NCBI RefSeq assembly: GCF_000319305.2
Contig: NZ_AMWJ02000002.1
Location: 930,001 to 994,000 of the forward strand
Source of the DNA: Pseudomonas bharatica CSV86
Lineage (GTDB): Bacteria; Pseudomonadota; Gammaproteobacteria; Pseudomonadales; Pseudomonadaceae
Length of the DNA: 64,000 bases
Reading direction: 5' to 3'
A program made the translations under genes and the position numbers. Shown in pieces: positions 1 through 63,961 of the stretch; the stretch's first letter is position 1; each line of letters opens with the position of its first letter. The notes under the pieces were generated by a model that was not told where the DNA came from, made no database searches, and worked only from the letters and a program-made list of their open reading frames with translations.

Positions 1-2
1 TA

Positions 3-767
3 AAACCGTTCAAGCCAATCGGATGTGCCGAGTGCCGCAATCCTGACGGCCTGGGATTCGACTTCACCATGGCGTTCCAACCCATCTTCAATGTCACCAC
101 CGCAAAGCCTTATGCCTACGAGGCTCTGGTTCGGGGCCTTGATGGGCAGTCCGCGGCCAGCATCCTGGCCAGGGTCAATGAAACCAACCGCTATCGATTC
201 GACCAGGCGTGCCGGGTCAAGGCGATCGAGTTGGCGGCACAGCTCGGTATGCCGGCAATACCGGACTGCAAGCTGAGCATCAACTTTCTTCCCAACGCGG
301 TCTACCGCGCCGAGACCTGTGTTCGCGCAACGCTGGAAGCCGCCAGTGAATGGGCATTCCCCATCGACCGGATCATGTTCGAAGTCACCGAAGGTGAGCA
401 GGTCGAGGATCCAGACCATCTGAAATCCATCTTCCTCGAATACGAGCGCCAGGGATTCACCACGGCAATCGATGATTTCGGCTCGGGGTATTCAGGCCTC
501 AACCTGCTGGCCATGTTCCAGCCCCAGGTGCTGAAAATCGACATGGCGCTGACCCGCGGCATCGGCCAGGACAGTGTGCGACGCGCCATTGTCGAAGGGA
601 TCGTCCTGGTTTCCAGGCGCCTGGGCATCACCGTCATCGCGGAGGGTATCGAAACACGCGAGGAACGAGACGCCCTTGCAGCACTGGGTATCGAGTTGAT
701 GCAGGGGTACCTGTTCGCGAAACCGAGCATCGGCGTATTGCAATCGATGCCAACGGAGCTGATCTGA
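3..767 (+). CDS. EAL-domain c-di-GMP phosphodiesterase, 5'-truncated
   Basis: The reading frame is open to the window edge, so the start lies outside; the ATG at 69 is internal. Visible protein begins with a short Cys-containing segment (GCAECRN) and a GFDFTMAFQPI stretch, then a full EAL domain. Residues expected for activity are present: EAL in YEALVRG, Asn in INFLP, Glu in FEVTE, DDFGSGYS, the Lys of KIDMAL, AEGIE and the QGYLFAKP end. It should hydrolyse c-di-GMP to pGpG in the cytoplasm. The N-terminal Cys motif resembles small single-domain EAL proteins rather than GGDEF-EAL hybrids. It runs opposite to the catabolic cluster that follows and has no obvious link to it. Confidence 0.85.
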   Translation, partial: KPFKPIGCAECRNPDGLGFDFTMAFQPIFNVTTAKPYAYEALVRGLDGQSAASILARVNETNRYRFDQACRVKAIELAAQLGMPAIPDCKLSINFLPNAVYRAETCVRATLEAASEWAFPIDRIMFEVTEGEQVEDPDHLKSIFLEYERQGFTTAIDDFGSGYSGLNLLAMFQPQVLKIDMALTRGIGQDSVRRAIVEGIVLVSRRLGITVIAEGIETREERDALAALGIELMQGYLFAKPSIGVLQSMPTELI

Positions 768-895
768 ACGCTGGCTGGCCTCTGGAAACCCCATGAACGA
801 AAAAGCCCGCTGACCGTCACCGGCAGCGAGCCATTTCATCTTTCATTCACCTTGAAGCGCGCCCGGGTTTGCTGATCAAGCGAGCTGCCGGCGAG

Positions 896-2326
896 TCACT
901 GCTGTCCCCAGCCGACGATGCCCTTGATCTCCAGGAAGTCATGGATACCCCACCCCGCATACTCGCGTCCGTTACCCGACTGCTTGTAGCCACCGAAGGG
1001 TGCGAAGGTGTCCCAGCTTGGGTAGTTCAGGTAGACCGAGCCGGCCCGCATGCGACCGGCGACGGCGCGGGCTTTTTCGAGATCCCGTGACTGCACGTAG
1101 GCCGCCAGGCCGTAGACCGTGTCGTTGGCCATCTCGATCGCCTGTTCCAGCGTGTCATAGGGCATGATCGACAGCACGGGACCGAAGATTTCCTCGCGGG
1201 CGATGGTCATGTGCGGCGTGACGTTGCCGAACACGGTCGGTCGCACGTAATAGCCTTTGTCCAGCCCGTCAGGCCGCCCGAGGCCGCCGGCGACCAGCGT
1301 GGCGCCCTCTTCGATGCCGCTGGCGATCAGCCCCTGGATCTTGTTGAACTGTGCCTCGCTGATGACCGGCCCCAGATTGGTTTTTTCGTCCAGCGGGCTG
1401 CCGGTGACCAATTGCCCGGCAGTCAGCCTGGCGATCTCCAGCGCGCGGGCATGCAGGCTGGCCGGCACCAGCATACGGGTCGGCGCGTCGCAGGATTGCC
1501 CGGAGTTGGAGAAACAGCCCTGCACGCCCTTGGCCACCGCCACGTCGAGGTCGGCGTCCTCGAGCAGGATATTGGCCGACTTGCCGCCCAGTTCCTGGGC
1601 CACGCGCTTGACGGTATCGGCCGCTGTCTTGGCGACGATGATGCCGGCGCGAGTGGAGCCGGTGAACGAGACCATGTCCACTTTCGGGTGGCTCGCCATG
1701 TGCTGGCCCACGTCGGGACCGGTGCCGTTGAGCAGGTTGAACACCCCCGCCGGCACGCCGGCCTCATGCAGGATCTCGGCAAAGATGATGCCGGTGAGCG
1801 GCGCGATTTCGCTGGGCTTGAGTACCACGGTGCAGCCGGCGGCGATGGCCGGCGCCACCTTGCAGACGATCTGGTTCAGCGGCCAGTTCCACGGCGTGAT
1901 CAGGGCGCACACGCCAATGGCCTCGCGCACCACATGGGTGGCACCGTGCTGCTCGCTGAACCGGAAGTTTTCCAGGGCGCTGATGGTGGACTCCAGGTGC
2001 GCGCGACCGCTCCAGATCTGCGCATCACGGGCAAAATGCAGCGGTGCCCCCATCTCCTGGCTGACAGCCTTGACCAGGTCTTCGTAGCGCAGGTTGTACA
2101 CCCGCAGGATTTCCTTGAGCAGGGCCAGGCGTTCAGCAACGGACGTATTCGAGAACGCCGGGAAGGCCCGGGCAGCGGCCTCGACCGCCTTGTCGACATC
2201 CCGGGCGTCGCCCACGGCGATCTGGATGAACGCCTGCTCGGTGGCAGGATCGATCACGTCCAGGGTGTTGCCGGCATGCGGGGCTACCCACTGGCCGTCG
2301 ATGTAAAACTTCAATGCGTTGTTCAT
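896..2326 (-). CDS. NAD(P)+-dependent aldehyde dehydrogenase
   Basis: A full-length aldehyde dehydrogenase of 476 residues. The general-base motif ELGGKS (Glu about 245) and the catalytic Cys in GQSCDAP (about 279) are present, as are the cofactor motifs PWNWPL and FTGSTRAG. It oxidises an aldehyde to the carboxylate with NAD(P)+ in the cytoplasm. I chose the ATG at 2326, which has GGAGA upstream, over a GTG four codons earlier. It is the last gene of the leftward cluster, after mmsA with a 75-bp gap. The context suggests it acts on the aldehyde released by the upstream amine oxidases; the exact substrate cannot be read from the sequence. Confidence 0.88.
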   Translation of the reverse strand: MNNALKFYIDGQWVAPHAGNTLDVIDPATEQAFIQIAVGDARDVDKAVEAAARAFPAFSNTSVAERLALLKEILRVYNLRYEDLVKAVSQEMGAPLHFARDAQIWSGRAHLESTISALENFRFSEQHGATHVVREAIGVCALITPWNWPLNQIVCKVAPAIAAGCTVVLKPSEIAPLTGIIFAEILHEAGVPAGVFNLLNGTGPDVGQHMASHPKVDMVSFTGSTRAGIIVAKTAADTVKRVAQELGGKSANILLEDADLDVAVAKGVQGCFSNSGQSCDAPTRMLVPASLHARALEIARLTAGQLVTGSPLDEKTNLGPVISEAQFNKIQGLIASGIEEGATLVAGGLGRPDGLDKGYYVRPTVFGNVTPHMTIAREEIFGPVLSIMPYDTLEQAIEMANDTVYGLAAYVQSRDLEKARAVAGRMRAGSVYLNYPSWDTFAPFGGYKQSGNGREYAGWGIHDFLEIKGIVGWGQQ

Positions 2327-2401
2327 TTCTGTCTCCACGGTGAGCAGGACGCCGCGTTAGGCTCATCGCCCACGCGGCAGGATTGACCTGACCTTGGCCA
2401 C

Positions 2402-3901
<1,500 letters not shown>

Positions 3902-3942
3902 GCATATTCTCCGATGCCGAAAGCCGGCTGTTCAGGGGCCGG

Positions 3943-4302
3943 TCAGGCCTTGACCGCTGCCTGCAGGGCGATTTCGACGAGGATGTTCTCCGCCGCCATG
4001 TTGGCCTCCACCGTGGCCCGTGCCGGCAGCGCGTCCTGCGGGATCCACTCGCGCCACACGGCGTTCATGGCGGCAAAGTCCTGCACGGCATGCTTGAGCC
4101 AGATCTGCGCGAACAGGATGTGCGACTTGTCGGAACCGGCTTCGGCCAGCAGTGCATCGATCCGCGCCAGGACCTGGGCAGTCTGCCCGGAGACATCCTG
4201 GGTGCGGTCGGCCGGCACCTGGCCGGTGATGTAGACGATGCCGTTGTGCACCAGCGCGTGGCTGAGCAGGCCGGGGTTGGGTTGCAGACGAGTGATGGTC
4301 AT
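3943..4302 (-). CDS. RidA family imine/enamine deaminase
   Basis: A 119-residue RidA/YjgF/UK114-type protein. Family members are cytosolic homotrimers that hydrolyse reactive enamine/imine intermediates made by PLP enzymes or flavin amine oxidases. The N-terminal core contains VYITGQVPAD and the C-terminal half ends ATVEANMAAENILVEI, matching the family fold. The conserved Arg seen in RidA proper is in LPARATVE. I start at the ATG at 4302 because AGGAATCACC precedes it and the family begins here; an 18-codon upstream extension is not conserved-looking. Its place in a cluster with two FAD amine dehydrogenases fits clearance of their imine products. Confidence 0.85.
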   Translation of the reverse strand: MTITRLQPNPGLLSHALVHNGIVYITGQVPADRTQDVSGQTAQVLARIDALLAEAGSDKSHILFAQIWLKHAVQDFAAMNAVWREWIPQDALPARATVEANMAAENILVEIALQAAVKA

Positions 4303-4348
4303 GAGGTGATTCCTGTTGGGTGGGTGAATGCTGTTGAAGGTGAATAGC

Positions 4349-5383
4349 TCAGGCAATTTTCAGCACCGTGCGGCCCACCAACTGGCCCTGGCGCATGCGT
4401 GCAAAGATGTCGTTGATGTCGTCCAGGCGCTCCAGGTTGACCTGGGCCTTGACCTGGCCGCGGGCGGCGAAGGCCACCGCCTCGTTGAGGTCCTGCCGGG
4501 TGCCGATGTTCGAGCCGGTGATGGACAGCTCCCAGCCGCTGATGCTGGAGATCGATGCGCGCACCGTATCGGCATCGCCACCGGGCAGGCCGATGAACAC
4601 CGCCGTGCCGCCAGGGCGCAGCATCCTCACCGACTGCTCGAAGGCGGCATTGGCAGTGGCCGTCACCAGTACCGCGTGGACGCCACCCGGAATGTGCCGC
4701 TTGAGGGTTTCCACCGGGTTATCGAGGGCGTCGACCAGGCACTCGGCGCCGTAACTGCGTGCAAGCTCCAGCTTGTCGGCGGACACATCGATGGCCGCCA
4801 CCCGCAAGCCCATAGCGACGGCGTACTGCACCGCCACATGGCCCAGGCCGCCGATGCCCATGACCGCCACCCACTGCCCCGCCCGGGCGCGGGAGCGCTT
4901 CAGGCCCCGGTACGTGGTCACTCCGGCGCAGAGGATGGGCGCCAGGGCGTAGAGATCGGCCCCAGGCTCGATGGTGGCGACAAAGCCTGCCGGCGCCACC
5001 ATGTACTCGGCGTAGCCGCCCTGCTTGCTGTAGCCGGTGGATTCGCGCTGGGCGCAGATGGTTTCCATGCCGCCCAGGCAGAACTCGCAGGTGCCGCACG
5101 CGCTGTACATCCACGGCATGCCAACGGCTGCGCCGATCGGCGGTTCGCTGACCCCGGCACCATGGGCCGCCACATGCCCGGTGATTTCATGACCGGGGAT
5201 CAGCGGCAAGGTCGGCAACGCGGACCAGTCGCCATCAATCGCATGCAGGTCGCTGTGGCACACGCCACAGGCCGCGATACGAATGAGGATTTCGCCGGGG
5301 CCGGGCTTCGGAATCGGCACTTGCTCGATACGCAGCGGCTCACCTACAGCGTGCAGGACCGCAGCCTTCATGGTCTGACTCAT
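4349..5383 (-). CDS. Zinc-dependent alcohol dehydrogenase (AdhP type)
   Basis: A 344-residue medium-chain dehydrogenase. Catalytic zinc ligands are visible as C39 in CGVCHSD and the PGHE pair near 65-66; the structural zinc cysteines are in CGTCEFC and a fourth Cys near 110. The NAD-binding loop is GIGGLGHVAVQ. It interconverts primary alcohols and aldehydes with NAD(H). The start at 5383 has an excellent AAGGAGAG ribosome site; a longer upstream frame lacks one. It follows the iclR gene by about 100 bp in the same direction and probably handles alcohol/aldehyde interconversion in the cluster. Confidence 0.87.
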   Translation of the reverse strand: MSQTMKAAVLHAVGEPLRIEQVPIPKPGPGEILIRIAACGVCHSDLHAIDGDWSALPTLPLIPGHEITGHVAAHGAGVSEPPIGAAVGMPWMYSACGTCEFCLGGMETICAQRESTGYSKQGGYAEYMVAPAGFVATIEPGADLYALAPILCAGVTTYRGLKRSRARAGQWVAVMGIGGLGHVAVQYAVAMGLRVAAIDVSADKLELARSYGAECLVDALDNPVETLKRHIPGGVHAVLVTATANAAFEQSVRMLRPGGTAVFIGLPGGDADTVRASISSISGWELSITGSNIGTRQDLNEAVAFAARGQVKAQVNLERLDDINDIFARMRQGQLVGRTVLKIA

Positions 5384-5486
5384 AACTCTCTCCTTCACGT
5401 ACGCCTGGATTTCGGGCAATGGGGCACCTATACCGCCGGCCAGGGCCGGCAGCAGGGTGTTCGGGTGCAAGGGGTTCCCCGGGGCG

Positions 5487-6278
5487 TCAGCCCACGGGGC
5501 GTAAACTGCGCGTCGCGCTGGCTATGTTTCGGGCGGTGTTGATGACCTTGGGCGCCAGTTGGCTACGCGCGTCCTCGAGGGTCCAGCGGCTGAACGGCAC
5601 GGAAATGTTGACCGCGCCCAACGGATAGCCATCGGCATTGACCACAGCGGCGGCAACGCTGATATCGCCGGCGAAGTACTCTTCCTGGGCATAGGCATAC
5701 CCGGCGCTGCGGGCTTCGGCGACCAACGCACGCAGTTGGTCCAGTTCCGTCACCGTGCTGGCGGTATAGCCCTGACGCTCGGAGGCCATCAGGATCGCGT
5801 CGGACTCGTCCTCCGGCAGCGCTGCCAGGTAAGCACGGCCCGCCGATGTGCAGTACATGGGCAGGTGCCGGCCCAATGGCATGTGGATGGCGATCTGCTT
5901 GTGGCTTGGGAAACGTGCCACGTAGAGCATGTCCAACCCGCAGGGTTCAAGCAGGTTGCAGCTTTCCTCGACATTGCGGTTGAGCTCATGCAGGTACGGA
6001 TTGGAGCGCTCGATCAATTCGCTGGTCTGCAGATAGCCGGTGCCCAGGTCCAGTGACTTGGGCGCCAGGCGAAGACGCTTGGTCACCGGCTCCTTGTACA
6101 GATAGCCCAGCGCTTCGAGGGTAAAGGCGGAACGCTGCACGGTGCTTTTGTTCAGCCCCGTGTGTTCGGCCAGCTCGACCAGGCTCATGCTCGGCCGCCC
6201 GGCTCGGAATGCCGTCAGGATCGAAAGCCCTTTCGACAGGGCAGTGATGAAAAGTGGTGAGTCTTCCAGGGAACTCAT
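5487..6278 (-). CDS. IclR family transcriptional regulator
   Basis: A 263-residue IclR protein. An N-terminal winged helix-turn-helix (about residues 15-75, with LVELAEHTGLNKSTVQR) precedes the GAF-like effector domain, which contains MPLGRHLPMYCTSAGRAYLA and GDISVAAAVVNADGYPLGAVNIS. IclR proteins act as tetramers that bind promoter palindromes and respond to small acids or amines. The ATG at 6278 is preceded by AAGGAT. The frame continues upstream in a non-homologous extension that I discard. The gene sits inside the catabolic cluster, between the FAD dehydrogenases and adhP, and is the obvious candidate for its substrate-responsive regulator. Confidence 0.88.
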   Translation of the reverse strand: MSSLEDSPLFITALSKGLSILTAFRAGRPSMSLVELAEHTGLNKSTVQRSAFTLEALGYLYKEPVTKRLRLAPKSLDLGTGYLQTSELIERSNPYLHELNRNVEESCNLLEPCGLDMLYVARFPSHKQIAIHMPLGRHLPMYCTSAGRAYLAALPEDESDAILMASERQGYTASTVTELDQLRALVAEARSAGYAYAQEEYFAGDISVAAAVVNADGYPLGAVNISVPFSRWTLEDARSQLAPKVINTARNIASATRSLRPVG

Positions 6279-36102: not shown

Positions 36103-36402
36103 GTGGCTCGTTCCCAAAAAGTCCTTGATCGTCTGAAAGCCGAGCAAGCGGACAATCCGAAGATCCCACATTATGAATCCCGGCCAGGCGAGTCCTGCTG
36201 GCCGTTACAACCTGACGACATCAAGACCGCCGGGTACTGGAAGCAGGAACGCAGACGTGTGCTGAAGGACGCAGAACCAGCTGCCTATGTAATCAGTGGC
36301 CAGGGTGGATCGCTTCACGGCTCAGTGCTCTTAACTCGCTGGGTGCCTGCTTACCATCTCGACCAAACGGTGCCAATGAAGTCCAAGAGCGCGGACAATT
36401 GA
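36103..36402 (+). CDS. Small conserved ICE protein, 99 residues
   Basis: A soluble, basic protein with no recognised domain (RSQKVLDRLKAEQADNPKIPHYESRPGESCWPLQ ... YWKQERRRVLKDAEPAAYVIS). I choose a GTG at 36103 because GGAGG lies seven bases upstream; a TTG 42 bases earlier has no such site. Its stop overlaps the TTG start of the helicase gene, so the two are probably coupled. A small hairpin GGTGCG-ggcagg-CGCACC lies just upstream (about 36044-36061). Confidence 0.65.
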   Translation: MARSQKVLDRLKAEQADNPKIPHYESRPGESCWPLQPDDIKTAGYWKQERRRVLKDAEPAAYVISGQGGSLHGSVLLTRWVPAYHLDQTVPMKSKSADN

Positions 36403-38365
36403 AGCGGCCACGCCTCCTCAATAGCCAGCCAGTGCTGCTCGAAGCCGCCGTGTTTGACGGCTACGACATGGGCATCCTCATGCCCTACATCGAAGGCGCT
36501 AACAAGGTCATGTTTGCGCGTAGCGGTTTCTTCATCCGCCGCGGCGACCACCCGCTCTGCCGATATTGGCGCGTGCCCAAGGCCAAGCTCATCGACGAGC
36601 TTGACCTGGTGTACCACCAGCTAGTCGAGCTGGCCGGTGACAAGGTCACGGAATCATGGCAGGCGTTCCGCCAGAAGATCGAGACCGCGTTGAGTGCTCC
36701 CCGCCGCGACGCTTTCACCTGGGGGATGCTGCTGCGCATCGCGCCGCTAGCCGACGGCGGTGTGCTGCTGTCCGGAGATTATCATCCTGGAGTCGTTGCA
36801 GTGGCCCGCCGGATGCGGGGAGTGTTCCTGGGAAAATCCAGCTCGTGGCGAGTCAACGCCACCGCCGAGATCCTGCGCAGCAACCTGGTCCTGGAGCTCG
36901 GTCTTGTAGAGGACCAGTTCGAGATCCTGGACGTTGTACAGGAGCTCCTGGGTGATGGCTCTGTTACTCCAGCAGCAGACATCCCGCGCATCAGCCTGGG
37001 CGGTACTCCTCAGGAACCCTCGACAGCCACCAGCGGTGAGGAGAGCTCCAACGACATCTACCTCGCTGCCGTCTCGCCGATCGAACGCACCGAGTTCTCA
37101 GATGCCACGATCGCCCAGGCCCTGGTCGGCTATTCCCTGCTCGATCACCAGCCTGCTGGCATCGCTCACCTGCTCCAGCGCACCAGCGCACTGCTGGCTG
37201 ACGATATGGGCCTCGGCAAGACACGCCAGGCCGTCATCGCGGCGCATATCAGTGCAGCCGGTCGCCCGATCCTGGTGGTGACCCTTTCCTCGTTGCTGAT
37301 CAACTGGCAGCGTGAAATCCTGGCGGTCTACCCCGACGCGACAGTCGCTGTGCAGAAACACGACCCGCTGGTCCAATGGATGCTGATCAACTACGAGCGT
37401 CTCGGCGACTACGTGCTGCTGGCTGAGCATTACCACGTTCTAGTGGTCGACGAGGCGCACCAGTTGAAGGAGCCGACTGCCGAGCGTACACGCCATGGCT
37501 TCGACATCGCAGCCAAGGTGCCGAATCGCTATCTGCTGACAGGCACGCCTGTCCTCAATCGCGAGACGGAGCTGCACACCCTGCTACGTCTATCGGGGCA
37601 CCCGGTCGGCCAGTTGCCCCTCAGCGATTTCTGCGAACGCTTCGCCGGCAGCCCAGAGTTCCGGCAAAACCTCCGGGCAGAACTGGGCGACTGGATGCTT
37701 CGCCGGCGCAAAGACGTTCTGCCCGGGCTCAAGGGTAAGCACCGGCAGTTGCTGCCCGTGGCGATGGGGGTGGAGGAGCGGAAGAAGTACGACAGCATTC
37801 GCTTCGAGGACAGGCCCATCTTTGCCAGGCTCGGCGCGCTTCGCCATTACCTGGAACAGGTGAAGGTCAGAGTCGCTATGGACCTGCTGGGCGAGCTGGA
37901 CCCCGAAGACAAGGTCATCCTGTTCTGCGAGTTCAAACCCACCGTCGCCCGCCTCAAGGAGCTGTGCGATGCAGCCGGTATCGGGAACATCACCCTGGTC
38001 GGCAGTGACTCACTCACCAAGCGCCAGAAGGCGATCGACAAGTTCCAGGGCGACCCCGACTGCAGGGCTTTCATCTGCACCACCCAAGCCGCCGGTACAG
38101 GCAACAACCTCACGGCGGCCAACTATGTCTTCTTCCTGGGCCTGCCCTGGACACCCGGACAACAGGATCAGGCCGAGGACCGGGCGTACCGGAATGGTCA
38201 GCTCAGGACGGTGATCGTGAAGATCCCCTCGTGGAGAACAGCATCGATCAGCAACTCTGGCAGATGCTCTTAGCGAAGCGCCAAGTCAGCTTGGAGCTCA
38301 TTGAGCCGGAAGAGCAGCAGGACGCCTTGGCCAAAGCTATGCTCGCCGCGACCATCAGCCAGTAG
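36399..38365 (+). pseudogene. ICE SNF2/DEAD-like helicase, C-terminal frameshift
   Basis: About 655 residues if repaired. Motif I is DDMGLGKTRQ (about 268-277), motif II DEAH in VVDEAHQLK (about 350), motif III LLTGTPVLN, and the C-terminal lobe has VILFCEFKPTVARL and FICTTQAAGTGNNLTAA followed by DQAEDRAYRNGQ. The N-terminal 200 residues resemble the HARP-like region of SMARCAL1-type proteins. After VKIP the frame breaks; adding one C to C4 at 38225-38228 gives LVENSIDQQLWQMLLAKR and a stop at 38365. A TTG start overlaps the preceding stop. It may remodel DNA forks during ICE replication. Confidence 0.82.
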
Positions 38366-57449: not shown

Positions 57450-58789
57450 ATGAACGCACTGACCCAATCGGCCGCCTCGGCCAACTCCCCCCTGAACATC
57501 AACCTGACCGATTTCATCGACGAGTTCGGCGACGAGCTCCTGAAGTCACTGAACCGCTCCAACCCTCCGGTTTTTAACGGTAGCGTCAACGAACAGCGCC
57601 AGGCCGTGATGGCAAATCTCAAGCGCACGCCATTCGTGGCGCAAGCCGAAGTTGTTCAAGCCATTACGGCGCTACTGCTCGATCGCAACGAGCAAGCCGC
57701 GATCATCAACGCCGAGATGGGTACCGGGAAGACGATGATGGCCATCGCAGTCGCTGCCGTGCTCCACGCGGCAGGCTACCGTCGTACCCTCGTCGTCTCG
57801 CCACCCCACCTGGTCTACAAGTGGCGACGCGAAATCCTAGAAACGACGCCTGGCGCCCGCGTCTGGGTACTCAACGGCCCGGATACACTGGTGAAACTTC
57901 TCAAGCTGCGTGACCAGCAGTGGCAATCCTATGACGGCCGGCCGGAGTTCTTCATCCTCGGCCGTGTACGGATGCGGATGGGCTTCCACTGGAGGCTCGC
58001 CTGCTGGAAGCGACGTGCTGCATGCGGCCAACTGTTGGCCGCATGCCCAGACTGTGGCCAGGTCCTCGAGGATCTGGAACGCAACCTGGTCACCGTGGAC
58101 GAGTTCAAGCGCGGAGACCGCCGTCGCAATTGCACCGCCTGCAACGCTGCCCTCTGGACGCTTATGCGTCCAGGCAAAACCGATGGTGGCGACCGACGCT
58201 CGACGATCCTGAAGTCGATGTGTCGAATCCCAACGATCGGCCCGGTTCGGGCAGAACGTCTGCTGAATGACTTCGGCGAGGACTTCTTGGCCTCGATGCT
58301 GGTCGACAACGTCTCGGAGTTCATCAATCTGATGGACGCGAAAGGCAACTTCGTCTTCAGCGACCGCCAGGCCAAGCGCATGGAGCGAGCAATGGCAAAC
58401 ATCGAGTTCGGTTTCGGCGAAGGCGGCTACCAGCCGACAGAATTCATCAAGCGCTACCTACCCGATGGTTTCTTCGACCTGCTGGTGGTCGACGAGGGGC
58501 ATGAGTACAAGAACAGCGGTTCGGCCCAGGGCCAGGCCATGGGGGTGTTGGCCGCGAAGGCGCGTAAAACCGTGCTTCTCACCGGGACCTTGATGGGTGG
58601 TTACGCCGACGACCTGTTCTACCTTCTGTTCCGCATCCTCACCCGGCGCATGATCGAGGATGGCTACCGACCCAACGCACGCGGCAGCATGGCTCCTGCA
58701 GCCATGTCGTTCATGCGCGATCACGGCGTGCTCAAGGACATCTACACCGAGCGCGATGGCGATTCGCACAAGACCGCCAAGGGCAAGAA
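57450..58789 (+). pseudogene. ICE SNF2/DEAH-like helicase interrupted by a Tn3-family element
   Basis: About 446 residues remain. Motif I is AEMGTGKTMMA (about 88-98), motif Ia VVSPPHLVYKWRRE, motif II DEGH in VVDEGHEYKN (about 346) and motif III LLTGTLMGG. A zinc-binding insert has CPDCG and CTACN. The whole second helicase lobe is missing: after AKGKK the sequence enters the 38-bp inverted repeat at 58790 and a stop follows at 58826. The rest of the gene should lie beyond the far end of the transposon. GCAGGAGATGCAC precedes the ATG. The frame is otherwise intact, so the insertion looks recent. Confidence 0.85.
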
Positions 58790-58827
58790 GGGGGCGCCTC
58801 AGAATTCGGAAAAAATCGTACGCTAAG
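58790..58827 (+). mobile_element. Left terminal inverted repeat of a Tn3-family (Tn501/Tn21-type) transposon
   Basis: The 38 bp begin GGGGG and contain AGAATTCGGAAAAAATCGTA followed by CGCTAAG, which I recall as the inner part of the Tn501 inverted repeat (differing only in bases 6-10). Length is exactly 38 bp, the Tn3-family value. It falls where the helicase loses homology. The transposase, resolvase and matching right repeat are not visible up to 64000. Confidence 0.8.
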
Positions 58828-58954: not shown

Positions 58955-59635
58955 ATGAAACTTAATTCAGATCTTTCGCAGCGTGTCGTCGTCGAGCCTT
59001 CAAGCTTACAGTGGGTCGATTCGCCAGCGACTGGGATTCAACGCCAGTTACTGGAGCGTGATGGCGACGAAGTGGCGAGGGCCACCTCGTTCGTGCGATA
59101 TGCGCCAGGATCGAGGTTCAAGCGCCATGTTCATCACCTGGGCGAAGAAATCCTCGTTCTTGATGGTATGTTCACCGATGAGTCCGGAACCTTCGGGCCT
59201 GGGACTTATATCAAGAATCCACCAGGTTCTTCGCATGCACCAAGCTCCGCGACGGGTTGCACGTTGTTCGTCAAGCTGCGCCATCTTGATCTAGCCGACA
59301 GCCAACGCACCGTGGTCGACACTCGTAACGGACCCTGGTTTCCAGGCCTCGTGCCGGGTCTGTCGGTGATGCCACTTTCTGAGTTCGACACCCAACATAC
59401 GGCTTTGGTGCGCTGGGCTCCGGGGACACGATTCAATTCGCATCGTCACTACGGCGGTGAAGAAATCTATGTGTTGGAAGGCGTCTTTGAGGATGAGTTC
59501 GGAAGCTACCCTGCCGGCACATGGATGCGCAGTCCGCATTTGAGTGCTCACCGCCCCTTCAGCAATGAAGGCTGCACTATCCTGGTCAAGACAGGCCATC
59601 TGCCAGTCGCTGAATCAAATGAGGCACTTGCATGA
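58955..59635 (+). CDS. Bicupin protein, ChrR-like cupin domains
   Basis: 226 residues made of two homologous cupin repeats. Each has a metal-binding set: HVHHLGEEILVLDG then SSHAP in the first (about 50-95), HRHYGGEEIYVLEG then SAHRP in the second (about 160-205). The pattern resembles the ChrR anti-sigma cupin fold and related oxidative-stress or dioxygenase-like proteins. No signal peptide. The enzyme or sensor role is unknown. It overlaps the TetR gene by 4 bp (ATGA at 59632-59635) and is expressed from the promoter with the TetR-type operator. Confidence 0.8.
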   Translation: MKLNSDLSQRVVVEPSSLQWVDSPATGIQRQLLERDGDEVARATSFVRYAPGSRFKRHVHHLGEEILVLDGMFTDESGTFGPGTYIKNPPGSSHAPSSATGCTLFVKLRHLDLADSQRTVVDTRNGPWFPGLVPGLSVMPLSEFDTQHTALVRWAPGTRFNSHRHYGGEEIYVLEGVFEDEFGSYPAGTWMRSPHLSAHRPFSNEGCTILVKTGHLPVAESNEALA

Positions 59636-60216
59636 AGCATTTCTCCGAAATCTCGCCGACCGCCGAGCGCGTGGTCGATGCCGCTGAAGGCTTGGTACAG
59701 CGGCATGGCTACAACGGCTTCTCATACGACGACGTGGCCCAGTTGGTAGGCATCAAAAAACCAAGCATCCACCACCACTTCCCCAAGAAGGGAGAACTCG
59801 TGGCCGTGGTCGCACAGCGCTACACGCACCGGTTTCGTGAGGAGTTGCTGAGCATCGAAGGGCAGCATGCGAAAGCGCCTGATAGGCTAACTGCGTATGC
59901 GGCACTTTTCGAACGCACCTTCGCCAAGGACCGGCGCCTTTGTGTCTGCGGCATGTTGGGTGCCGAGTCGGACTCGCTGCCGGACGCCGTTGTGAGCGAG
60001 GTCAAGCGATTCTTTAAAGTCAATCTCGACTGGTTGACTCTTGTCGTTGCCGACGGTCAGCGTGCCGCGCTGATCACCTCAAATTCCGCCGCAGAGGCTC
60101 TCGCAGAGGCGTTCTTGTGCGCGTTGGAGGGCTCGATGGTGGTGGGCCGTGGCATGCGATCGCCACGCGGACCGGCCGATGTTGGAAACACTTTTCTTTC
60201 TACCGTGTTGACCTAA
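59632..60216 (+). CDS. TetR family transcriptional regulator
   Basis: 194 residues. The N-terminal helix-turn-helix (RVVDAAEGLVQRHGYNGFSYDDVAQLVGIKKPSIHHHFPKKGELVAVV) is classic TetR; the C-terminal ligand domain contains DRRLCVCGMLGAESDSLPDAV, close to the TetR_C regulators of quinone or aldehyde stress (a Cys pair CVC may sense redox). It is coupled to the bicupin gene and probably binds the palindrome CTACCAWTTAGTYGGTA in both promoters, repressing itself and the SDR-OsmC pair. Confidence 0.87.
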   Translation: MKHFSEISPTAERVVDAAEGLVQRHGYNGFSYDDVAQLVGIKKPSIHHHFPKKGELVAVVAQRYTHRFREELLSIEGQHAKAPDRLTAYAALFERTFAKDRRLCVCGMLGAESDSLPDAVVSEVKRFFKVNLDWLTLVVADGQRAALITSNSAAEALAEAFLCALEGSMVVGRGMRSPRGPADVGNTFLSTVLT

Positions 60217-60273: not shown

Positions 60274-61050
60274 ATGAACACTGAATTTAATGGCAAGAAG
60301 CTGTTGGTCATCGGCGGCACTAGTGGGATGGGATTGCAAACTGCCCGCATGGTTCTCGAGCAAGGCGGAAGCGTCGTCATCGTCGGTCACCGCGAAGACA
60401 AAGCCGAAGAGGCCCGCAAGGAGCTGTCGTCGTTGGGCGCCGTGACAGCCCTGACTGCCGATCTCTCGCGGGTCGAAGATGTGAAGCGACTCCTGCATAC
60501 CATCGATGAGAACCACAAGGACATCAATCTTCTGGTCAACGCTGCTGGGGTGTTCTTCCCGAAGGCGTTTCTTGAGCACACGGAAAGTGATTACGAGCAA
60601 TATTTGTCGTTGAATAAAGCGTTCTTCTTAATCACACAAAAGGTCGTGGCCAACCTCGTGGCCAGCGAGCGTCCCGGCGCCATCGTGAACATCGGCTCGA
60701 TGTGGGGCAAACAGGCGATCGCGGCTACGCCGTCGTCCGCGTATTCGATGGCAAAAGCAGGTTTGCATTCGCTGACCCAGCACCTTGCGATGGAGTTGGC
60801 ATCCAAACAAATCAGGGTCAATGCCGTTTCTCCGGCGGTTGTCGAAACGCCGATTTACGAGGGTTTCATACCCAAGGCCGAGGTTCATGGCGCCTTACAG
60901 GGATTCAACAGCTTCCACCCAATCGGCAGGGTTGGGACGCCACAAGACGTAGCCGAGGTCATCATCTTTCTGTTGTCGGACAAGGCAGCATGGGTGACGG
61001 GCGCAATCTGGGACGTTGACGGCGGTGTGATGGCCGGGCGTAACGCATAA
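60274..61050 (+). CDS. Short-chain dehydrogenase/reductase
   Basis: 258 residues, a classical SDR. The cofactor motif is GGTSGMGLQ (about 14-22), NAAG follows (about 89-92), the Ser of the catalytic triad is in NIGSMWGK, and YSMAK holds the Tyr and Lys. The Arg/His-rich [10 protein letters not shown] after strand 2 favours NADP(H). It reduces a ketone or aldehyde. Together with OsmC and the bicupin it may form a redox or electrophile-detoxification unit under TetR control. AAGAGGTTATT precedes the ATG; its stop overlaps the next start (TAATG). Confidence 0.87.
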
Positions 61051-61064
61051 TGGGGGAACGAGAA

Positions 61065-61366
61065 ATGAACACAAACATTAAAGGAACGCCCGACAACGGG
61101 ATCAACGTCGGTACATTGCGGGAGTTTGCAGATCAGGTCGCAGCAAAGCCCGCCGCAGGCATCGCGACGTTTGGCGTCGTGACAACCTGGAAGGGGGGCA
61201 CCCGGACGCGTGCGCGAACCATGCCGCTCGTCCTGGGTGACACAGCCTTGGCGCGCGGCTTTGTCATCGACGCGGACGAACCGGCAGAATTGCTCGGTAC
61301 CGACACGGCCGCTAATCCACAAGAGTTGATCATGGCTGCGTTGAACGCATGCATGACTGTGGAGTC
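61065..61366 (+). pseudogene. OsmC family protein, 3'-truncated
   Basis: About 100 residues of an OsmC/Ohr-like protein: GIATFGVVTTWKGGTRTRARTMPLVLG then ELLGTDTAANPQELIMAALNACMTVE. This ends at the catalytic-Cys helix (NACM); the second half, with the other Cys, is absent. From about 61360 the sequence changes to a DUF2807 gene in another frame. Intact relatives reduce peroxides or lipoyl-linked hydroperoxides. The break is a recombination junction, not a homopolymer slip. Confidence 0.75.
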
Positions 61367-61719
61367 GCACTGCCTGAAGCGCCAAGCATCCGCATCAAGG
61401 GCAGGGGCGATGTGACTTTGTATGCCCTTCAGCAGGCTGTGCTCGATCTCCGTGTCCAAGGATCGGGTGACATCACGGCCTTTGGCCAAGTGGATCTTCT
61501 GGTCGCCGAGATGGCCGGTTCGGGCGATGTCGATGCCAGTGAGCTGGTGGCTAAGTCCGCCAAGCTGTCGATGGTTGGCTCCGGCGATATCGACGCTTAT
61601 GTCAGCGACTCCGTGAAGGCCAGAGTGATGGGTTCTGGCGACATCGTGATCCGCGGTAACCCACCGATCCGCGATCATCGGTTGCCGGCTCAGGCGACAT
61701 CAAGTTCAAGAAGAAGTAA
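61367..61719 (+). pseudogene. DUF2807 (head-GIN) domain protein, 5'-truncated and frameshifted
   Basis: Repeats of the head-GIN type (IRIKGRGDVTLYALQ, LRVQGSGDITAFGQ, AEMAGSGDVDASEL, LSMVGSGDIDAYVS, ARVMGSGDIVIRG) form a right-handed beta solenoid. The gene has lost its 5' end and signal peptide at the OsmC junction. Near 61675 one more frame change is needed to reach the last repeat SSVAGSGDIKFKKK and its stop at 61719. Such proteins are normally periplasmic; function unknown. Confidence 0.7.
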
Positions 61720-61800: not shown

Positions 61801-62074
61801 ATGGCAACTACCGCAAAAACCCGATCTGTCACGGCTCACGTCCCTGTGCAACTGGCCGAAAAGGTCGATTTGATGGCTGAGCGCCTGTAGCGCTCCAAGA
61901 ACTGGATCGTCAAGCAGGCCCTGTCCGCCTGGATCGACCAGGAAGAAGAGCATAGTCATCTGACCCGTCAGGCTTTGGGCCAATGTGGATGCTGGCCGCG
62001 TGATTGATCACCGGGCTGTCCAAGCCTGGGCTGATAGCCTTAGCACCGACACGCCGTTGCCTGTACCGCGCTGA
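61801..62074 (+). pseudogene. parD: ParD-like ribbon-helix-helix antitoxin, broken
   Basis: MATTAKTRSVTAHVPVQLAEKVDLMAERL then an in-frame TAG (61888-61890) and SKNWIVKQALSAWIDQEEEHSHL, a clear RHH antitoxin. A second defect, one extra G near 61977-61979, is needed to reach NVDAGRVIDHRAVQAWADSLS. The TAG is a substitution (GAG expected), not a homopolymer slip, so this gene is really damaged. The stop overlaps the parE start (TGATG at 62072-62076). Confidence 0.75.
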
Positions 62075-62348
62075 TGGAGCTGAAGTGGACAAACAAGGCG
62101 CTTTCCGCCATTGCCAGGCTGTACGAGTTTCTGGCGGCGGTGAATCAGCCTGCTGCCGCACGCACGGTACAGCAACTCACGGCTGCTCCGACCACGCTGC
62201 AGGCCAATCCGCGCATTGGCGAACGCCTGGAAGAGTTCGACCACGGGATGTGCGCCGAATTCAGATCGGCCACTATGAAATGCGCTATGAGATTGCAGAC
62301 TCTACTATTTACCTGCTGCGTTTATGGCAAACCCGCGAGGACCGCTGA
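62074..62348 (+). pseudogene. parE: ParE-like toxin, frameshifted
   Basis: About 91 residues if repaired. The N-terminus MELKWTNKALSAIARLYEFL is a RelE/ParE-fold pattern; the C-terminal half RDVRRIQIGHYEMRYEIADSTIYLLRLWQTREDR is in another frame and joins after one C is added at 62241-62242 (EFDPRDVRR). ParE poisons DNA gyrase. With the antitoxin broken, an intact toxin would be lethal, so a real toxin lesion is plausible here, although the form of the lesion also fits a base-calling slip. Confidence 0.75.
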
Positions 62349-62486: not shown

Positions 62487-62998
62487 ATGAAAAAATTAGC
62501 TATTTTAGGTGCTGCTTTGTCAATTTCCTGTCTTAGCGTTGATGCGGCAGAGCTGACCAGTGCAGTCGGCGCCACAAGTCAGGGCGGCGGAACTGCTCGT
62601 CTTGCCCTTGGGTTCGACTGGGAAAAATCTTGGTTTCAAACTTCTATCGGGAAAGTAACTGGCTATTGGGATTTAGGATATACCTACTGGCAAGCAGGGG
62701 ACCAAGCTGGCGGCCGTCATAGCGTATCCTTCGCGCCGGTTTTTGTGTATGAGTTTGGCGAAGGAAATATTAAACCTTTTATTGAAGCAGGAATTGGCGC
62801 TTCTATATTTAGCGGAACTAATGCTGGGGATCAGAATTTTGGTTCAGCTTTTAATTTCGAAGACCGCATAGGGGCTGGGTTAAAAATAGGTAATACACAA
62901 AAATCGGTATTCGCGCTATTCACTATTCAAATGCCAGTATAAAACAGCCAAATGATGGAATCGAATCTTACTCACTCTTTTATAGTCATTCGCTTTGA
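62487..62998 (+). pseudogene. pagL: Second PagL lipid A 3-O-deacylase, AT-rich, frameshifted
   Basis: About 170 residues if repaired, closely similar to the ICE copy at 32.6-33.1 kb (for example GYWDLGYTYWQAGDQAGGRHSVSF; SAFNFEDRIGAGLK). A signal peptide ends near VDA. The frame fails at A5 62899-62903; A6 gives IGIRAIHYSNASIKQPNDGIESYSLFYSHSL, restoring the catalytic His, Ser and Glu. The DNA is much more AT-rich than the ICE copy and its surroundings, so it was acquired from a different source and not copied locally. Confidence 0.83.
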
Positions 62999-63736: not shown

Positions 63737-63961
63737 ATGAAAATTAAAAATCTTAATATAGTTGCTGTGTTTTTTTATTGTGTATTACTGGCCGGGTGTT
63801 CTACCACCACAGTGGTTACCCTTCAGGACGGCACACAATATATCACCAAAGATATACCAAAGACCAAAACAAAAGACGGTTTCTATGAGTTCGATGATGT
63901 GTCAGGTAAACATGTGAAAGTGAGATCTGATGAGGTTGCTACGATAAAAGAAGAGGATTAA
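63737..63961 (+). CDS. YgdI/YgdR family lipoprotein
   Basis: 74 residues. The lipobox is LLAGCSTT (Cys about 21), and the mature part VVTLQDGTQYITKDIPKTKTKDGFYEFDDVSGKHVKVRSDEVATIKEED is the SH3-like YgdI/YgdR fold. It is anchored to a membrane facing the periplasm; function unknown. AGAAGGACGCT precedes the ATG. Codons are AT-richer than the backbone. Confidence 0.83.
   Translation: MKIKNLNIVAVFFYCVLLAGCSTTTVVTLQDGTQYITKDIPKTKTKDGFYEFDDVSGKHVKVRSDEVATIKEED

Follow-up and report, generated by a model that had tools for sequence, protein, structure and literature searches.

Results

A Tn3-family element splits a helicase gene

Judging from sequence comparison, the SNF2-type helicase gene of a pKLC102/PAGI-5-like ICE in Pseudomonas bharatica CSV86 was almost certainly the target of transposition by a Tn3-family element that belongs to the Tn21/Tn501 group. 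The element spans 8,729 bp (L005 3791-12519) between its paired terminal repeats and is flanked by AAGAA. The window, the whole stretch of 64,000 nucleotides that we analyzed, covers bases 930001-994000 of C1, a 2.71-Mb contig in a 6.79-Mb assembly of nine contigs. Features beyond the window are given by their position in L005 (C1:985000-1004999), where a position equals the window position minus 54999 (Table 1).

Table 1. Features of the element, the interrupted gene and the host island. Plain numbers are window positions; other coordinates carry the name of their sequence.
Feature	Position	Strand	Basis or remark
SNF2 helicase, another, with both domains	36399-38273		host island
SNF2-type ICE helicase (SNF2-rel_dom), N-terminal part cut by insertion	57450..58789	+	domain match
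Target-site duplication AAGAA, left copy	58785..58789	.	sequence
Left terminal inverted repeat, Tn3-family element, 38 bp	58790..58827	+	sequence, paired right repeat
Bicupin protein (ChrR-type Cupin_7 + Cupin_2), cargo	58955..59635	+	95.6% over 226 aa to pSTY protein
TetR/AcrR regulator, cargo	59632..60216	+	96.4% over 194 aa to pSTY protein
SDR family oxidoreductase, cargo	60274..61050	+	96.9% over 257 aa to pSTY protein
OsmC-family protein, truncated (98 of 188 residues), cargo	61065..61358	+	pSTY/pWW0 homology ends there
DUF2807 gene fragment fused to truncated OsmC gene	61358..61684	+	relative on pCAR1
Broken parDE: ParD in two frames, ParE in two frames	61801..62345	+	protein matches
175-bp arm of internal parDE inverted repeat	61989..62163	+	other arm L005 11535-11709, beyond window
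PagL-type lipid A deacylase gene	62487..62995	+	frame broken near end in assembly
YgdI/YgdR-type small lipoprotein, cargo	63737..63961	+
Group II intron piece	L005 9204-9426		Rfam RF02005
Right terminal inverted repeat, 37 bp	L005 12483-12519 = C1:997482-997518	-	inverted match to left end; about 3.5 kb past window
Target-site duplication AAGAA, right copy	L005 12520-12524 = C1:997519-997523		sequence
Helicase_C (Pfam) part of helicase	L005 12520-13434		beyond window, directly after right repeat
Tyrosine-recombinase gene	L005 16617-17774		beyond window

The first-pass annotation had placed a 38-bp Tn3-family end inside the helicase gene and proposed a search to the right for its complement. 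The end is present as described, and its inverted partner was found on the same contig. Aligned without gaps, the two ends are identical at 28 of 38 positions, including all 21 inner positions; the next best inverted match within the same 16 kb reached 21 positions, and the best in 60 Markov shuffles 24. With up to three mismatches allowed, the inner 21 bp occur at exactly two sites in the 6.79-Mb assembly, C1:988807-988827 (+) and C1:997482-997502 (-), which are inverted and lie 8.7 kb apart, and a reversed-pattern control at the same threshold gave no sites in the whole assembly. The presence of only two sites assembly-wide and the 28 identities, as against 24 in the shuffles, rule out a chance repeat. 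Both ends are of the GGGG...CTAAG type and about 38 bp long, although the right one measures 37 bp in CSV86 versus 38 bp in pPUV-4, pCAR1, and RW109, which counts against our reading. The outer 17 bp of the left repeat are identical on pCP7-41 and pD2RT, where they stand beside other flanks, while the exact 27-bp outer left repeat had no match in the named genome collection, which therefore gave no further insertion sites.

The predicted 5-bp duplication of AAGAA is present at both ends, and its length agrees with uninterrupted copies of the gene. Our search with the left flank covered 298 genomes of the genus and gave matches in 24, CSV86 included; of the 29 loci besides the query, L046 matched the left flank only and was left out, leaving 28 for comparison. 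The gene was uninterrupted at the insertion place in all 28, and the separately searched flanks overlapped by exactly 5 bp in every one of them. In 26 of the 28 the reading frame runs through the site uninterrupted for 756 codons or more, counted from stop to stop, the exceptions being L029 (513) and L043 (541). In the closest uninterrupted copy (L018), the left flank is 96.9% and the right flank 93.0% identical.

The earlier claim that the insertion cuts the helicase was borne out, with the break falling between the two lobes, the SNF2-related one on the left and Helicase_C on the right. The left frame continues past the junction into the end of the transposon and meets a stop at 58826, giving 458 codons when those inside the repeat are counted, and the remaining part was found past the right end, where the annotation had suggested looking. 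The helicase is presumably not made as a whole protein. The annotation would have been refuted by the lack of a matching repeat or transposase downstream, or of the second helicase lobe; the right repeat, a tnpA remnant, and the remaining lobe are all located beyond the left end. CSV86 has a second copy of the helicase on C2 at around 297-299 kb (L007, L043) that shows 71-73% DNA identity and carries no transposon; its frame is broken shortly past the equivalent insertion place (L043).

Cargo and interior remnants

The left 2.56 kb of the element is 94.1% identical in DNA to the copies in pSTY and pWW0. It holds the four-gene cargo orf41-43-44-45 of Tn6603 (cupin, TetR/AcrR, NAD(P) oxidoreductase, and osmotically induced detox protein), the fourth gene being truncated. 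Tn6603 is a 7,315-bp element of the Tn21/Tn501 family with the same four-gene cargo, and its description reports that these genes have no known phenotype (PMC7765201). All Tn6603 homologues reported there are at least 99% identical, which places the CSV86 copy outside that set. Among 398 genomes of the genus searched with the left 2.57 kb, 21 matched, CSV86 included. Five of the others are 94% identical along almost the full query, one of these with two matches; another is 99% identical at positions 32-2142; and in the remaining 14 the match is limited to the SDR gene, at 71-76%.

The interior continues after the OsmC break with, in order, DUF2807, parDE, pagL, the lipoprotein, the intron piece, IS110-type pieces (named partly by eye), the inverted parDE, and the tnpA remnant. 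Relatives of the DUF2807 fragment and of parDE stand together on pCAR1. Plasmid pCP7-41 (NZ_CP089552.1, L012) is 98.8% identical over element positions 1-5702 and has the same outer left repeat beside a different flank, but its interior block is in another order, and no paired right repeat was seen in the 26-kb stretch of the plasmid that was compared. Plasmid pD2RT is 99.7% identical over element positions 32-3690. These two matches indicate that the cargo block with the OsmC break exists outside the CSV86 ICE. The idea that the cupin-TetR-SDR-OsmC group, ParDE, and pagL are transposon passengers held in that all of them lie between the paired ends, with OsmC truncated and both ParD and ParE broken.

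Just past the window, a 921-bp block (L005 9493-10413, C1:994492-995412) consists of pieces of 168, 513, 39, 110, and 93 bp, the order and orientation of which are unlike pCP7-41; they are at least partly of IS110 type and reflect either rearrangement or misassembly. None of the 45 plasmid records matching L005 9400-10500 covers 80% of the query in one place, and none of 3,404 plasmid records covers 80% of the stretch where the inverted parDE meets the tnpA remnant. In pD2RT (L015 4503-6001), the left transposon repeat holds an IS110-family element annotated as IS1492, which sits near position 32 of the 38. IS1492 is found at the same point of the repeat in pWW53 (L016, around 6001), and L069 (around 212) has the same preceding sequence there; the outer part of the left repeat was not found in L016.

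Loss of the transposase and a hybrid origin

The proposed search for tnpA and tnpR succeeded for the first, as a C-terminal remnant, and failed for the second. The remnant corresponds to residues 747-988 of the 988-residue pSTY TnpA, the C-terminal quarter, read in two frames, and gives a match to PF01526 (E 2.9e-59), the trace of a Tn3-type DDE transposase. With tblastn, pSTY TnpR had no match in L005, the 20 kb holding the element. PF00239 had no match in the element and none on C1; on C2 there were two adjoining partial matches, one scoring 25.4 against a curated cut-off of 23.3 bits. An intact autonomous transposon of the Tn6603 kind, with complete tnpA and tnpR, is ruled out by the C-terminal quarter and the absence of a TnpR match. 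PF01526 had no other match in the assembly, which is an estimated 88% complete and could therefore lack a helper transposase. As no other Tn3 transposase was found in this incomplete assembly, the element looks non-autonomous.

The right 757 bp, comprising the tnpA 3′ end and the right repeat, are 99.3% identical to elements on pCAR1 and P. aeruginosa plasmids among the matches listed, versus 92.2% to pSTY. This difference marks the element as a hybrid: it is composed of two lineages in one group, with a Tn6603-type left end and cargo and a Tn1013/Tn1403-like right end. The label of the latter comes from the pPUV-4 element (L153, Pseudomonas aeruginosa), which is ∼99% identical over these 757 bp and whose cargo is like that given for Tn1013/Tn1403 in PMC7765201. 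Unlike the CSV86 element, that of pPUV-4 has full tnpA and tnpR and other cargo (an anion transporter, a universal stress protein, and others). The term Tn501-type used in the first-pass annotation is correct as far as the Tn21/Tn501 group goes, an assignment that rests on the relationship to Tn6603 and on PMC7765201; by cargo, the nearest named element is Tn6603/Tn4653.

A relative on plasmid pNY11382-NR (L159) combines Tn6603-type cargo with a right repeat whose outer sequence is the same as in CSV86. Less than 1 kb separates its tnpR from the right repeat, too little for a tnpA of 2,967 bp, and it is a hybrid-ended, transposase-deleted relative. It differs from the CSV86 element in its length of ∼4.65 kb, in having kept tnpR and a whole OsmC gene, and in its insertion site.

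The insertion would have followed the replicative (paste-and-copy) route usual for the family, with a cointegrate that was then resolved. TnpA may have come from the element's own tnpA before its loss or from another TnpA acting in trans, and the element would be immobile at present unless a compatible transposase is supplied. A variant of our reading, to which we give a clearly minor share of belief, would make the element a TIME-COMP-like unit: plasmid DNA captured by Tn3-type repeats and moved in trans, the tnpA remnant being incidental. The different lineages of the left and right ends would fit such a unit, and non-autonomous mosaic elements are documented in Pseudomonas, including Tn3-family elements with 5- or 6-bp duplications (PMC4133298). 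Against it, the Tn6603-type cargo and the tnpA 3′ end keep their usual places, beside the left and the right end respectively, an arrangement that a decayed ordinary transposon would show. A related proposal, somewhat less doubtful but still tentative, is that a hybrid non-autonomous unit with ends of different Tn21/Tn501-group lineages might have been mobilized in trans into the ICE. If true, it would in effect be a vehicle by which decaying gene blocks of plasmid origin can pass between plasmids and ICEs although it has no transposase of its own.

Single-base gaps and weaker alternatives

Compared with near-identical stretches of pCP7-41, pD2RT, and pPUV-4, the element contains 12 distinct one-base gaps; at eight of these a base is missing from the CSV86 assembly and at four there is an extra one. 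All but one of the 12 sit where the same base occurs at least twice in a row, and gaps of this homopolymer type would suit sequencing error, either in the CSV86 assembly or in the other records. Conversely, the helicase part right of the insertion aligns with L068 over 917 bp without a gap, and the left flank's 15 gaps form three clusters, all outside coding frames, which together speaks against frequent sequencing error. Sequencing error is a possible cause of the missing base in the right repeat and of the frame breaks in pagL, the tnpA remnant, and the C2 helicase, on which the evidence is mixed. The OsmC break is common to the relatives and more secure than the other broken frames. Given the one-base gaps and the 88% completeness, which is the tool's estimate, broken frames within L005 3791-12519 call for caution.

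The same figures are what could be said for the helicase split being an assembly artefact: the estimated completeness and the scattered single-base differences from near-identical relatives, mostly in one-base runs. We regard this as highly improbable, since the junctions show the exact ends and the 5-bp duplication expected of the transposon group and lie inside a 2.7-Mb contig. Hardly more credible is a one-sided, stranded 38-bp relic whose neighboring cargo arrived by homologous or illegitimate recombination rather than as a transposition unit; the heavily rearranged interior and the mostly lost transposase would suit it, but it is contradicted by the presence of both ends, inverted and with the same 5 bp on either side, and by the exact 5-bp overlap in uninterrupted copies.

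The host island and related insertions

The window contains the type IVB pilus genes (homologues of PilN-type secretin, PilO, T2SSE, and T2SSF), a topoisomerase, and a DUF6094 gene adjoining the split helicase. This set of pilus, topoisomerase, helicase, and DUF6094 genes we take to be of the pKLC102/PAGI-5 type, and the host element looks like an ICE of that type. PMC7765201 also supports linking the type IVB pilus module to pKLC102/PAGI-5-type ICEs.

According to that study, Tn6603* is the base element of Tn4653 in pWW0, Tn6603 is inserted in PAGI-5v, an ICE-family island, and Tn6603 insertions have 5-bp duplications with two exceptions (PMC7765201). The CSV86 element is like Tn6603 and Tn6603* in its four cargo genes beside the left end, its terminal repeats, and its 5-bp duplication. 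It is unlike Tn6603 in the truncated OsmC, the lack of a detected tnpR, and the absence of three quarters of tnpA, and in having extra plasmid, IS, and intron remnants and a right end of another lineage. The pSTY transposon, in turn, is intact, with both 38-bp ends, a GTCTA duplication, tnpR, and a TnpA of 988 residues.

The insertion accounts for the broken ICE gene and corrects the island annotation, since the neighboring cargo genes belong to the transposon as passengers rather than to the ICE. Both the entry of Tn6603-type cargo into an ICE and the transposase-dead relatives with clean ends gain a further example. We found no paper in open-access full text on such a helicase insertion by a Tn3-family element in an ICE of Pseudomonas putida. 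The element is a clean but ordinary example that leaves the general picture unchanged: a transposase-deleted, hybrid-ended plasmid relative and a Tn6603 in another ICE-family island are already known.

Two further loci have lengths that agree with published sizes, as given in the Tn6603 description. A related ICE of Pseudomonas putida KH-21-134 contains an element 6,693 bp long from end to end (L074 8836-15528), the size of Tn6603*, which lies ∼3 kb downstream from the same helicase gene. On the left its flank leads into a umuD-like gene (named by eye), on the right the flank has no match in L005, and four of the five flanking positions agree. In Pseudomonas turukhanskensis, a whole contig of 7,315 bp (L077), the size of Tn6603, begins and ends with the transposon repeats, the appearance expected of a collapsed multi-copy transposon.
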